A DNA stretch of 64,000 bases from an uncultured bacterium. Its GTDB lineage: Bacteria > Cyanobacteriota > Vampirovibrionia > Gastranaerophilales > Gastranaerophilaceae. The translations under genes and the position numbers were made by a program. Location: the NCBI GenBank assembly GCA_949300485.1, contig CASGEL010000005.1, positions 1 to 64,000 on the forward strand, written 5' to 3'. Below, in pieces: positions 7,214 to 55,598 of this stretch; position 1 is the stretch's first letter; the number at the start of each line of letters is the position of its first letter. Under the pieces are notes generated by a model. The model saw only the letters and a program-made list of their open reading frames with translations, made no database searches and was not told the DNA's origin.

Positions 7214-7434
7214 GCCAAGATCCTCTATACTCTGCTCTTATATATATAAACAATATAAAGTTTAAATAATTGCTAAATCTTGCTTTTTGAGATTAATATT
7301 TCTTAATAAATTCTAATGGCAGTAAAGCATGTCAACAAAAATAACCACAATAGATAATATTAAGTTTTGTAAAGTGTAAAATGTACACTATTAGCGTAAT
7401 TCAGGGTATCTTATAAAAACATAAAAACATCTTA

Positions 7435-7463
7435 TTGACATATAATTTTTGTTGTGTAATAAT
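7435..7463 (+). promoter_or_regulatory. Strong promoter of candidate small RNA
   Basis: Perfect TTGACA, 16-17-base spacer, TAATAA/AATAAT. No protein gene follows on this strand before the terminator at 7583. Confidence 0.6.
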
Positions 7464-7468
7464 AATTA

Positions 7469-7609
7469 CATAAGATTTAAGTGTAGTCGAAACACTAAAT
7501 ATAAATAGTTCATTAACCCCAAAAACATATAAACTCCTAAATAATAAACACTAAAAGAGACCATTAGGATGCAGAAAACGACCCACTCACTTGTGAGTGG
7601 TTTTTTTTT
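7469..7609 (+). ncRNA. Candidate small RNA of about 140 nt
   Basis: The segment between the promoter at 7435-7463 and the perfect terminator at 7583-7609 (CCACTCA, CTTG, TGAGTGG, nine T) holds no credible reading frame. Near its 5' end is a small hairpin AGTGT/ACACT. The middle is A-rich and unpaired. The layout (strong promoter, short A/U-rich body, intrinsic terminator, own strand) is that of a trans-acting small RNA. The ends are predicted only. It opposes the gene that ends at 7636. Confidence 0.5.
7583..7609 (+). terminator. Terminator of candidate small RNA
   Basis: A 7-base perfect stem with a four-base loop followed by nine T. Confidence 0.85.
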
Positions 7610-7635
7610 ATGTTTTAAAATAGTTTTTTATATTA

Positions 7636-8310
7636 TTAGTTAGCCTGAGGGTTTGTTTGAATTTGTTGAGTCTGATAGCTGCCAGGCTCTTCATCTTTTG
7701 GAATATTTGAGTATTTTGCATCTGAAACAGGTGTGGTCTGGGGTTCTGTAGATTCTGCATTTTCTGTTTTGGCAGGCAGAGTATTGTTTGGAAGTTCTCT
7801 TCGTGTATTTAAAAATTCGTTCATCCTTTGTTCATAATCAATATGTAGATTTTCGGATTTTTGGATTTTTTGTAAAATATCATTAAGTTCTTTTTTATAT
7901 GAATCAGCCTGTTTGCAGGTTTTATAATTATCTGTTGTGTTATATAGTTTTCGGATTATTCCTGTTGCTACGCTTCTTCTTGAATCGTTGCTATCCAGTT
8001 TTTTATATGTAAGATTATATAATTCAATTGCATTTTGCTGGGCATAATCAAGATAAACGCATGAAATATTTTTTATAGGGATATTTTTATTTTTTTCGAG
8101 TTTTTGTTCTAAAAAGTCATCAATTGATAAATATTCATAATATTTATCAGATGTAGACATATCTGTTCTATTTGCAAGTGTTTCAAAATCTATTTTTTCA
8201 TTAAGATTTTTTACTTCTAAATATGCTGAGATTGAGTATCCTGCTAATAGTATACCTAATCCGAGTATACTTATTCCTAATAATAGTAAGTCATTTGAAT
8301 TCTCTTCCAT
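7636..8310 (-). CDS. Single-pass membrane protein, unknown
   Basis: 224 residues from the ATG at 8310, which has AAGGGG five bases upstream; a start 30 bases earlier lacks a site. One transmembrane helix near the N-terminus (DLLLLGISILGLGILLAGYS) is followed by a hydrophilic, mostly helical domain with two cysteines and a disordered Pro/Gln/Thr-rich tail. Topology suggests an N-in anchor with the domain outside the cytoplasm. No family is recognised. It is divergent from the three-cysteine gene at 8437. Confidence 0.7.
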   Translation of the reverse strand: MEENSNDLLLLGISILGLGILLAGYSISAYLEVKNLNEKIDFETLANRTDMSTSDKYYEYLSIDDFLEQKLEKNKNIPIKNISCVYLDYAQQNAIELYNLTYKKLDSNDSRRSVATGIIRKLYNTTDNYKTCKQADSYKKELNDILQKIQKSENLHIDYEQRMNEFLNTRRELPNNTLPAKTENAESTEPQTTPVSDAKYSNIPKDEEPGSYQTQQIQTNPQAN

Positions 8311-8376
8311 TATACCCCTTATGTTAAAACTCTTTTCCAAAATTATATAATAAAATTATGTAAAAAGCTATTTAGC

Positions 8377-8405: not shown

Positions 8406-8436
8406 TGATTATAAAATCAAGAAGGTGAGTCGGATT

Positions 8437-9096
8437 ATGAAAAAGTTTTATATATGGATTTTATTATTTGGAGTTATATTAGTGTTCGGCGGAAGTGTTT
8501 TTGCAGATGTTGTACAGATACAAAGACGTTTAAATCCTCAAACACAACAGCAAGTTCAGCAAAATAAAAGGAATAATGGAAAATATACTCCTATAATCAA
8601 CAATTATAATCAAAATAAAAAGACGGGTGATAAACTTTCTGATAATGTAAGAATGTGCAAACCATATACTGAAACTTTGAATACAGATGTTTCTGGGCTT
8701 AATTTTAAATTTAAAGTTAGTATAGAGGGTTGGGTAAATAATAAATGCAGATTGAATTTTATAGCTCAATCTACAGGTATCAGTGATGCTTTTAAGCAAA
8801 TATATGGAGTTGATTCATCTATGGCTTCAATATTCACTTTTGAACCCAAGATCAGATGTGAGTTTACAAAACAACAGCTTGAAAGTGTAGGAGATTCTAT
8901 ATTGCAGGAAAATGAAAGAAATGCCGGCGCAACAAATAATATGCTTAAAAATCCTATGAGTATTGAAATGCCTTCTATGAGCAATATGAGCGGTTCTGAT
9001 TTGAGGCTAATGGATGTTTTATTAAATGACAAAGCTTGTACGATTTTGAATGCAGGAGATTCTGCAGGCATGTTTGAATCTTTATTTGGTATGTAG
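8437..9096 (+). CDS. Secreted three-cysteine family protein A
   Basis: 219 residues with a signal peptide (MKKFYIWILLFGVILVFGGSVFA). The mature part has a Gln/Asn-rich linker, then a domain with the pattern MCKPYTET...IEGWVNNKCRL...IRCEFTKQQL, that is C-x-P/K..GW-x4-C...C-x-F-T-x-x-Q-L. The gene at 9130 and the distant gene at 61437 carry the same pattern, so this is a local paralogous family of exported proteins; three conserved cysteines suggest a disulfide or a lipid or metal contact. The start at 8437 is preferred over a GTG at 8425. No known family name comes to mind. Confidence 0.75.
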   Translation: MKKFYIWILLFGVILVFGGSVFADVVQIQRRLNPQTQQQVQQNKRNNGKYTPIINNYNQNKKTGDKLSDNVRMCKPYTETLNTDVSGLNFKFKVSIEGWVNNKCRLNFIAQSTGISDAFKQIYGVDSSMASIFTFEPKIRCEFTKQQLESVGDSILQENERNAGATNNMLKNPMSIEMPSMSNMSGSDLRLMDVLLNDKACTILNAGDSAGMFESLFGM

Positions 9097-9129: not shown

Positions 9130-9849
9130 ATGAAAATAATTAAAATAGTTAAAACGTTAATAATAATATCAGCTTTAATTTTTGGAACTCAGGCAATTGC
9201 TAAAATTGCGGAAGTAATGGTTCCTGTTGAACCTGAATCTACAAATGCAGTAAAAACTACCAGAGAAATTATAAATGAATCTGACCAAAATAAGGATGAA
9301 ATTACGGATATAAAAAAGCATGAGGATTCAGCTCCAGAGGAGGTTAAGTCCAAGCTTACAGATGATATTATAAAGGACTTAAGAAGCTGTAAACCGCAGG
9401 ATGAAAAATATGATTTTGATCTGTTTGGATTGAACCTATCTTTTAGAATAAATATAAAAGGATGGGTTGAAGATAAATGTGAATATCATATGTCTGCAAA
9501 AGTTAACAGTTTAGGAGAAGAATTTAGAAAATCATTTGGTATAAATGTAGAAGATAAAAAAATATCCAAAATAGTACCTAGGGTTGAATGTGCATTTACG
9601 AAAAAACAATTAAATTTACTGGTTGATGCAGTTGTAGAAGAAGATAAAAGGAATGTAGAACAGGTTAATAAGCTTTTAAATGACCCTAACGCAGTATATG
9701 ATATTCCGAGTAATAATGAATTGACTCCAAGTGAAAAAAAGTTGATGGACATGTTATCTCAGGGAGAAGTTTGTACAATCGTCAATATTGATGAAGTTGT
9801 GCAGCAAATGTCTGAATTATTGCCTGCATCTACCGATGAAAAGAAGTAA
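9130..9849 (+). CDS. Secreted three-cysteine family protein B
   Basis: 239 residues, paralogue of the preceding gene. Signal peptide or N-terminal anchor at residues 7-24 (VKTLIIISALIFGTQAIA), then a charged linker, then the shared domain: SCKPQDEK, INIKGWVEDKCEY, VECAFTKKQL, followed by the helical VVEEDKRNVEQVNKLLNDPN that also aligns with protein A (ILQENERNAGATNNMLKNP). It is co-transcribed with protein A and with the hydrolase gene that starts four bases after its stop. Function unknown; probably periplasmic. Confidence 0.75.
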   Translation: MKIIKIVKTLIIISALIFGTQAIAKIAEVMVPVEPESTNAVKTTREIINESDQNKDEITDIKKHEDSAPEEVKSKLTDDIIKDLRSCKPQDEKYDFDLFGLNLSFRINIKGWVEDKCEYHMSAKVNSLGEEFRKSFGINVEDKKISKIVPRVECAFTKKQLNLLVDAVVEEDKRNVEQVNKLLNDPNAVYDIPSNNELTPSEKKLMDMLSQGEVCTIVNIDEVVQQMSELLPASTDEKK

Positions 9850-9853
9850 TACT

Positions 9854-10579
9854 ATGCAGGAGTTATTTTTAACGACGGCTGATAATATAAAAATTGCAAT
9901 TAATCATTATAAACAGAATAATAATAGTGTGGTTATTATTTGTCCAGGTTGGTTCATGACTAAAGATTCAAGACCATTCAGAAGATTGTCTTTTGACTTT
10001 TGTAAAAAATATGATGTTATATCAATGGATTTTCGAGGACATGGAAAAAGCGGCGGATTTTATACATTTACGTCAAAGGAATGTTTAGATCTTGATGTCG
10101 TTGTAAATTATGCAATAAATTCTGGATTAAATTATAAAAAAATATATTTATGCGGATTTTCTTTAGGTGGGGCAGTCGCATTGAATTATAGTGCTGTAAA
10201 TAATAATATAGAAAAAGTTATTGCTGTTTCACCGCCGGCAGATTTTATAAAAATTGAAAATCATATGTATTCTCCCAATGCATGGATTCCTACATTATTT
10301 AAAAAATGTGAGCCTATGCGGTGGTTATCAATAAGAGCCGGTTTCCCGTTTTTAAAAAAATATAGACCAATAGATTTAGTTACAAATATAAAATCTCCAA
10401 CATTATTTATTGCTGGTGAAAATGATCCTACTGTATTTCCATGGCATACAGAGAGCTTATATAACAATGCAGTATGTGAGAAACAGTATAAATTGTTTAA
10501 AAATGCTAATCATGCAGAAGATTTATATATGGATTTTCCGGAAGAATTTATGAAACTTTGCTATGACTGGCTTGGTTAG
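9854..10579 (+). CDS. Alpha/beta hydrolase
   Basis: 241 residues, a typical compact alpha/beta-hydrolase fold protein. The nucleophile elbow is GFSLGG with Ser103; the oxyanion region PGW and DFRGHGKSGG precede it; the acid is likely the Asp in GENDPTVFPWH and the base the His in NANHAED. Cytosolic esterase or thioesterase-like activity is likely, but the substrate cannot be told. I chose the ATG at 9854, just after the previous stop, because it begins the conserved core and has AAGAAG upstream. Its 3' end overlaps the convergent gene at 10548 by 32 bases. Confidence 0.85.
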   Translation: MQELFLTTADNIKIAINHYKQNNNSVVIICPGWFMTKDSRPFRRLSFDFCKKYDVISMDFRGHGKSGGFYTFTSKECLDLDVVVNYAINSGLNYKKIYLCGFSLGGAVALNYSAVNNNIEKVIAVSPPADFIKIENHMYSPNAWIPTLFKKCEPMRWLSIRAGFPFLKKYRPIDLVTNIKSPTLFIAGENDPTVFPWHTESLYNNAVCEKQYKLFKNANHAEDLYMDFPEEFMKLCYDWLG

Positions 10580-11312
10580 CATTTTTTACAGGTTTTCTAT
10601 CTGCTGTACCGGATCTGTAACCGCAGAATGAATATATTAAAGGTAACGCTCTTTCTATTTTTATTTTGCTTGCAAATGGTATTTTAGCTAATACCATAAT
10701 TGCTACAATGTCATCAATATTTGCTATCATATCAATAGGTTTTAATTCTCTTGCCGGTTTTTTTGCATCCTTTCCTCTTCTTAGTTTATTTGAAAGTTCT
10801 ACAGCCAAATTTGAGCCTAGGGCAACTCCGGCAGCTGATACTAACACTTTTACAAAGTTATTATTTATTTTTTTATTTTTAACTTTTTCGCATAATTTTA
10901 CTCCGCCATCTACAAATAATATAGGCAGAGAGGTTAGCATCATTTGAAAAGCTCCTTCTTTCCACTTTTTCTTTTTATCGATGTCAGGTTCACCTATAGA
11001 GCTTAGAAGAATTCCTCCAAGGTTTCCTCCAGCAGCCATTGTTAGCATTTCTCCGACTTTATATTTTAATTTAAACGGATTTTTTACTTTTTGTTTTTTC
11101 ATAAATGTCAAAAGCGGTATTGTAACTCCTGTTAAAGCTCCTGTTGCAGCTAATACTTTATCCGTAGTTGTTAAAGGAGTCCCGTGAATAATGACATCAT
11201 CTTGTCTTTCCAAGTCAATATAACCATATGTAATTTCCCTTTTCCTTGGAGACGGAAAATTTTGCATATGATTGCCATTTCTGGTATTTATAGATAAGGA
11301 ATCCATAGCCAT
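10548..11312 (-). CDS. Multi-pass membrane protein, unknown
   Basis: 254 residues. After a polar N-terminus (MAMDSLSINTRNGNHMQNF) there are hydrophobic stretches near residues 50-70 (VLAATGALTGVTIPLLTF), 92-106, 120-136 and 150-170, separated by strongly basic loops (KKKKWK, KNKKINNNF). The architecture resembles the two membrane proteins at 61990-63722, which carry the F-x-G tag; here the tag is not clear. AAGGAT stands before the start. It overlaps the hydrolase gene tail to tail by 32 bases with no terminator between. Function unknown. Confidence 0.65.
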   Translation of the reverse strand: MAMDSLSINTRNGNHMQNFPSPRKREITYGYIDLERQDDVIIHGTPLTTTDKVLAATGALTGVTIPLLTFMKKQKVKNPFKLKYKVGEMLTMAAGGNLGGILLSSIGEPDIDKKKKWKEGAFQMMLTSLPILFVDGGVKLCEKVKNKKINNNFVKVLVSAAGVALGSNLAVELSNKLRRGKDAKKPARELKPIDMIANIDDIVAIMVLAKIPFASKIKIERALPLIYSFCGYRSGTADRKPVKNANQASHSKVS

Positions 11313-11396
11313 AATTAAAAATCCTTACTAAGTGTATATAATACACTAAAGTTATTATAAAGTAAACATTCAGTTAGTTTATTTTACAAATTAAGT

Positions 11397-55253: not shown

Positions 55254-55598
55254 TTATTTTACTAAAATTTCACTCATTTCACGTTCTACAAAATGCATCA
55301 TTTCAGCATAATTGCCATTGAAGAAATTATTTGTAAATTCTTTAAGCATGTCTAATGCCATTTCTCTTTTGTCCATTGTAACTTTGTAGAAAAACTTTTT
55401 ACCAACCTTGTATCTGACTAAAATACTTTTTGTAACAAGTCTGTCCATAACGGTTTTTATTGTTGTATAAGCTCTTTCTGTCCCGTTTTTGGATAGTTCG
55501 TCTACGATATCCTGAATTGAAATATCGATGTCTTCATCACTTGCTGTTAGATTCCAAAAGGTGTTTAATATTTCGATTTCAAGAGATCCGCAAGCCAT
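55254..55598 (-). CDS. BlaI/MecI/CopY-family repressor
   Basis: 114 residues. LEIEILNTFWNLTASDEDID, then the winged helix IQDIVDELSKNGTERAYTTI with TVMDRLVTKSILVRYKVGKK, then a dimerisation helix (FFNGNYAEMMHFVEREMSEI). The A-Y-T-T-I/V-x-T-V-M-x-R-L motif is that of BlaI/MecI. No BlaR1-like sensor protease is adjacent. AGGAGG precedes the ATG. A dyad over its own -10 region suggests autoregulation. Confidence 0.9.
   Translation of the reverse strand: MACGSLEIEILNTFWNLTASDEDIDISIQDIVDELSKNGTERAYTTIKTVMDRLVTKSILVRYKVGKKFFYKVTMDKREMALDMLKEFTNNFFNGNYAEMMHFVEREMSEILVK

Follow-up and report, generated by a model that had tools for sequence, protein, structure and literature searches.

A predicted small RNA gene conserved in Gastranaerophilales and its putative shared operator

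Yfr1, one of the described small RNAs closest to the locus reported here, is 54-69 nt long and is defined by the undecamer ACUCCUCACAC (PMC2190773); its UCCU is required for contact with its target (PMC6778093). Like Yfr1, our candidate is intergenic, ends in its own terminator, has an unpaired middle containing ACUCCU and is nearly universal in its lineage. It differs from Yfr1 by the lack of ACUCCUCACAC (the sequence at this comparison is ACUCCUAAAUAAUAAACAC), by a length about twice as great (~139 nt) and by a second, more deeply conserved core. Trans-acting small RNAs with a C/U-rich, anti-Shine-Dalgarno seed likewise expose a CUCCU able to pair with AGGAG, but here no Hfq was detected and an extra, order-invariant core is present.

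The window, i.e. the whole stretch of 64,000 nucleotides analysed, comes from a genome of 2.05 Mb whose named relatives are Gastranaerophilales (Melainabacteria). A sigma-70 type promoter, TTGACA-N17-AATAAT with a TG before the -10 box, is predicted at 7435-7463 (+), with TTGACA at 7435-7440 and AATAAT at 7458-7463, the two being 17 bp apart. As the initial annotation had stated, TTGACA is accompanied by a good -10: the site agrees with the consensus at 11 of 12 positions and ranks first among the 33 promoter-like sites found in the 5 kb scanned. The shuffled sequences gave a mean of 27.8 such sites, any quality counted; AT-rich DNA is full of promoter-like matches, and a promoter scan is therefore unconvincing by itself. 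The predicted transcript, whose start was placed from the -10 box, would cover 7470-7608 (+) and end at an intrinsic terminator at 7583-7609 (+). This terminator has the perfect hairpin and nine T already described, with a 7-bp stem and a 4-nt loop (CCACTCA-CTTG-TGAGTGG, 7583-7600) followed by exactly nine T (7601-7609). Ten terminator-like sites were found in the region for 2.0 expected, and the hairpin has a z-score of -3.0. The fold of the whole RNA is unremarkable compared with shuffles (z = -1.0). Since the promoter count and the fold are weak when taken alone, the verdict on this gene depends on the comparison with relatives.

The signal that exceeds chance is the conservation, in other species, of a sequence running from the -35 box to the T-tract. 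We searched 7420-7625 against 117 relatives, and the matches mostly started at the -35 box or a few bases before it and ended in the T-tract, which delimits a block conserved in Gastranaerophilales at 7435-7608. Identity over this block is 90-98% in most congeners, many of the family's other genera show ~78-95%, and the promoter hexamers are kept across genera. In members of families f5, f6 and f7, to which the window does not belong, the 5' palindrome, AAGAGACCATTAGGATGCAGAA and a terminator are retained while the middle differs. A covariance model built from 21 sequences, which matches 7470-7608 with 142 bits, found the gene in 222 of 286 genomes and in 37 of the 50 genera of the order, nearly always in a single copy; g21 and g26 are among the genera in which it found none. 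Among the matches listed for a class-wide sample, all fall within the order; weak candidate matches were obtained in G076, G077 and G091 (E from 2e-5 to 9e-4). At least 115 genome-contig stretches contain an exact 19-mer of the core, and the informatively named records carrying it are Gastranaerophilales, Melainabacteria or Cyanobacteria MAGs. Covariation, a check proposed at the outset, was found in the terminator stem, where for each of the six modelled pairs at least one sequence has both bases changed, and pairing is kept in 98.6% of the cells; the arms of the 5' palindrome do not covary. Taken as a whole, the structure scores 0.162 for covariation, compared with 0.065 for shuffled sequences and at most 0.051 when it is slid. 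This comparison supports both the gene unit and the structure of its terminator, and it strongly favours the initial reading of a small RNA that has a promoter and a terminator of its own.

With Rfam 15, no family passed the gathering cut-off at 7435-7610; the best sub-threshold match was the rimP leader, with 23 bits for a cut-off of 47. The RNA is thus a new family, absent from Rfam. Searches of viral contigs and plasmids gave no match, and a viral or plasmid origin was rejected. Among open-licence papers, nothing relevant was found on small RNAs of Gastranaerophilales or Melainabacteria or on the core sequence. Many MAG contigs terminate within the small RNA gene, its two halves lying on two contigs (L059/L060, L065/L066, L067/L068, L070/L071 and others). 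These breaks likely come from co-occurring species that share the same 100-odd bases, which breaks assemblies.

The genes next to this block vary. At the 116 loci that have a called gene at either flank, all four orientations of the neighbours were seen (52, 24, 23 and 17 loci), and the proteins flanking the gene in the window are absent from most other genera. The initial annotation had made its candidate depend on conservation in relatives that keep the flanking genes; the block is conserved even where these genes differ, and the candidate withstands that test. Further along the window, the proteins of the adjacent genes 8425-9096 and 9130-9849 (+) are ~27% identical to one another; these uncharacterised exported proteins are likely products of a tandem duplication. 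Regarding coding potential, the ~115 A-rich bases had been described as free of a reading frame and indeed contain no ATG within 7470-7568. The sole + strand ORF of at least 20 aa begins at 7569 and crosses the terminator; the ATG of the core is followed by the stops AAATAA or AAATAG in some species and reads through the terminator in others. Single-base indels between species also occur inside the conserved block. The locus therefore presents its own promoter and terminator as a unit, no conserved frame and no tie to a neighbour. From this comparison of sequences, 7470-7608 (+) is very probably an independent non-coding RNA gene.

Two other assignments of the gene itself have to be weighed against this one. 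The segment could be a leader, an attenuator, a 3' UTR or a small-peptide gene, and its terminator hairpin, just behind gene 7636-8340 (-), might work on both strands. Given that the neighbours occur in every orientation with no adjacent gene conserved, and that the RNA's own promoter is conserved whereas a reading frame is not, we consider such an origin extremely unlikely. A distant homologue of Yfr1 in non-photosynthetic cyanobacteria is hardly more probable, although the phylum is broadly related and the two RNAs share a 5' palindrome, a 3' terminator, an unpaired middle with ACUCCU and an ACAC further on. Besides the missing undecamer and the difference in length, Yfr1 gave no Rfam match to the RNA even with E values up to 10, the most deeply conserved part is another motif, the ACUCCU module is missing in f6 and no match to the family was found outside the order among those listed.

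The 5' hairpin of the initial annotation corresponds to a palindrome, AGTGT-N7-ACACT, which is present at 7480-7496 (AGTGTAGTCGAAACACT, hereafter O1, ~+10 to +26) but is better read as a shared DNA operator than as an RNA hairpin. Its arms are almost invariant: three of the five pairs never vary, and a double change in one of 61 sequences does not amount to real covariation. We examined 143 distinct loci, allowing spacers from N3 to N12, and all 141 exact copies of O1 had an N7 spacer. An upstream copy, O2 (AGTGTAAAATGTACACT, 7373-7389, ~-98 to -82), is an exact AGTGT-N7-ACACT. Copies of this type were present at 84 of the 143 loci, with N7 in 84 out of 84; most of them precede the -35 box by 61-65 bp, which places them outside the transcript. 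A third copy in the window (AGTGTATATAATACACT, 11331-11347) lies 18 bp ahead of gene 10548-11312 (-), which encodes an uncharacterised protein of 254 aa with no Pfam match and is not among the recurring operator-linked genes. These three copies compare with 0.03 expected in the window. Three whole genomes contained 5, 5 and 2 sites, against none for the reversed control; across 30 genomes of the family the excess is smaller yet present, and in some of them (e.g. G065 and G066) the motif count is not above the control. The symmetric consensus is approximately TTAAGTGTW-N5-WACACTTAA, where the inner W is A or T only.

The same palindrome recurs ahead of two other genes. Eight genomes, from different genera, carry it ahead of typA/bipA, where it begins 3-4 bp after a -10-like hexamer in 6 of the 8 genes; in many genera it precedes a small-protein gene. 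In 17 small-protein promoters, of the form TTGAC(A/T)-17-(TATAGT/CATAAT-like), the distance from the -10 to the beginning of the operator is 15 or 16 bp; for O1 at the small RNA it is 16 bp. The gene after the small-protein gene encodes a rhodanese-like protein in both genomes read (G000 and G118). A family of small proteins begins with MITIxPVK...SFGEG (L345, L347, L389, L399, L403, L407, L420 and L422); the one member tested had no Pfam match. Their genes have a very uniform promoter, GGGGTTGACA-17-TATAGT, and mostly carry an additional AGTGT half-site 12 bp before the operator. From its recurrence in these comparisons, AGTGT-N7-ACACT is most likely the operator of a putative transcription factor, and with good confidence we regard it as common to the small RNA, typA and the small-protein gene. 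An operator located immediately past a strong promoter would point to a repressor, which we consider a probable role for the factor rather than that of an activator.

The palindrome could also act as an RNA stem-loop at the 5' ends of the small RNA, the small-protein mRNA and the typA mRNA, for instance in stability or in binding a protein. It lies at or just past the predicted start in the three classes, hence within the RNA, and can fold (-4.1 kcal/mol). This reading leaves unexplained the second copy upstream of the promoter, beyond the transcript, at more than half of the loci. The stem and the length of the loop are moreover nearly constant, with the single double change mentioned above, and in typA the palindrome would overlap the start site itself. 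We thus hold a stem-loop to be improbable and retain the operator. As for its possible owner, a gene for a BlaI/MecI/CopY-type repressor is found in the window at ~55254-55598 (-) (PF03965, E 9.5e-19). CopY/BlaI operators read TACA..TGTA, with the half-sites in the opposite order, and this repressor was rejected on that ground. In Bacillus subtilis, the operator of the GntR-family repressor YtrA is an inverted repeat AGTGTA/TACACT with a 13-bp spacer, according to PMC8060467 citing Salzberg 2011. The half-sites AGTGTA and TACACT, bound by a repressor in B. subtilis, are similar to those described here, but the spacer there is 13 bp, while here it is always 7 between AGTGT and ACACT (5 where the half-sites are AGTGTA and TACACT). 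Membership of a YtrA regulon was rejected on this spacing.

Within the predicted RNA, an anti-Shine-Dalgarno-like module, ACTCCTAAATAATAAACAC, is located at 7533-7551 (+); it is conserved throughout family f1 and absent in f6. The core AGACCATTAGGATGCAGAAA (20 nt, 7558-7577, +) is the longest conserved run in 61 sequences and is nearly invariant order-wide, being constant as far as families f5, f6 and f7 except in G052/L050 and at the last A. Most of 7500-7563 is predicted to be unpaired, in agreement with the long unpaired middle initially noted. A helix between UCCUAA and UUAGGA is also predicted and would hide both modules, a point against action by base pairing; this internal helix was rejected, as it is broken in G052 and finds no support in compensatory changes. 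ACUCCU complements AGGAGU, and the start regions of the genome are rich in AAGGAG and AGGAGA, which makes a generic blocking of Shine-Dalgarno sequences plausible, somewhat like the action described for Yfr1.

We then looked for targets and partners. The reverse complement of the core, searched with up to 3 mismatches and also with G-U pairs tolerated, occurred in four genomes in chance numbers only, and these searches led us to reject an extended pairing between the core and a single conserved target. A perfect 12-bp match of AACUCCUAAAUA to the start region of an acyl-CoA synthetase gene was discarded too, since it is not conserved in 29 relatives. For ~210 orthologous gene pairs from two genera, on which the predictions cover part of the genome, complementarity to start regions appeared enriched compared with dinucleotide shuffles. 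The enrichment was gone when ACUCCU was kept and its flanks were shuffled, and is therefore attributable to the anti-Shine-Dalgarno sequence alone. Hfq (PF17209) was detected in none of 60 genomes, with a control found in 5 of 14 known genomes, and we rejected an Hfq-dependent small RNA at that sensitivity. CsrA (PF02599) was detected in none of 25 genomes of the window's genus and is present in 12 of 15 genomes from other families of the order; a CsrB-like sponge of CsrA was rejected on its absence from the searched genomes of the genus.

These results bear on how the RNA may act. It is probably a trans-acting regulator that works through the ACUCCU module and the core, with base pairing as the leading reading, by a modest preference. 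The base-pairing regulator initially proposed is plausible, and goes beyond the evidence insofar as no target stood out. Its main rival is an independent small RNA whose core binds a protein or the ribosome, sequestering or guiding a protein without pairing to mRNA. The constancy of the core, far beyond the need of short pairing seeds, argues for such binding, as do the lack of a long complement in the four genomes and of any flank-specific pairing in start regions; co-regulation with TypA/BipA would hint at the ribosome. The obvious partners, Hfq and CsrA, were not detected in the genomes searched for each, and we regard a binding core as possible, at a clearly lower probability than base pairing. 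A more specific proposal would place the RNA in a ribosome-stress regulon, as an effector at the level of translation that is repressed together with the ribosome GTPase TypA/BipA. Without Hfq, its anti-Shine-Dalgarno mimic and its order-invariant core would affect the translation machinery, or numerous mRNAs simultaneously instead of a few specific ones; we judge this proposal unlikely.

Returning to base pairing, we favour, with somewhat more confidence than for the pairing by itself, a joint model of a repressor-controlled, single-copy small RNA gene with a shared operator and trans-acting base pairing without Hfq. This level of confidence is a compromise, because we infer the last steps. 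In this model, the strong sigma-70 promoter of the small RNA would be controlled by a dimeric transcription factor, most probably a repressor, that binds O1 just past the start site. In many species this factor would also bind at O2, ~107 bp upstream, and may do so by DNA looping. Its control would extend to typA/bipA and to the small-protein gene neighbouring the rhodanese gene. Once repression was lifted, the RNA would be made, ending at the terminator, and would act in trans, most likely by pairing via the ACUCCU module and the core AGACCAUUAGGAUGCAGAAA without Hfq, for example by covering Shine-Dalgarno sequences.

The sequence constancy of this RNA is unusually high for a regulator, in bacteria where Hfq was not found in the 60 genomes examined. 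The locus represents a new RNA family in most of an order of hard-to-culture gut bacteria related to cyanobacteria, and the shared operator leads to the hypothesis of a small regulon that would comprise the small RNA, typA/bipA and the small-protein gene.
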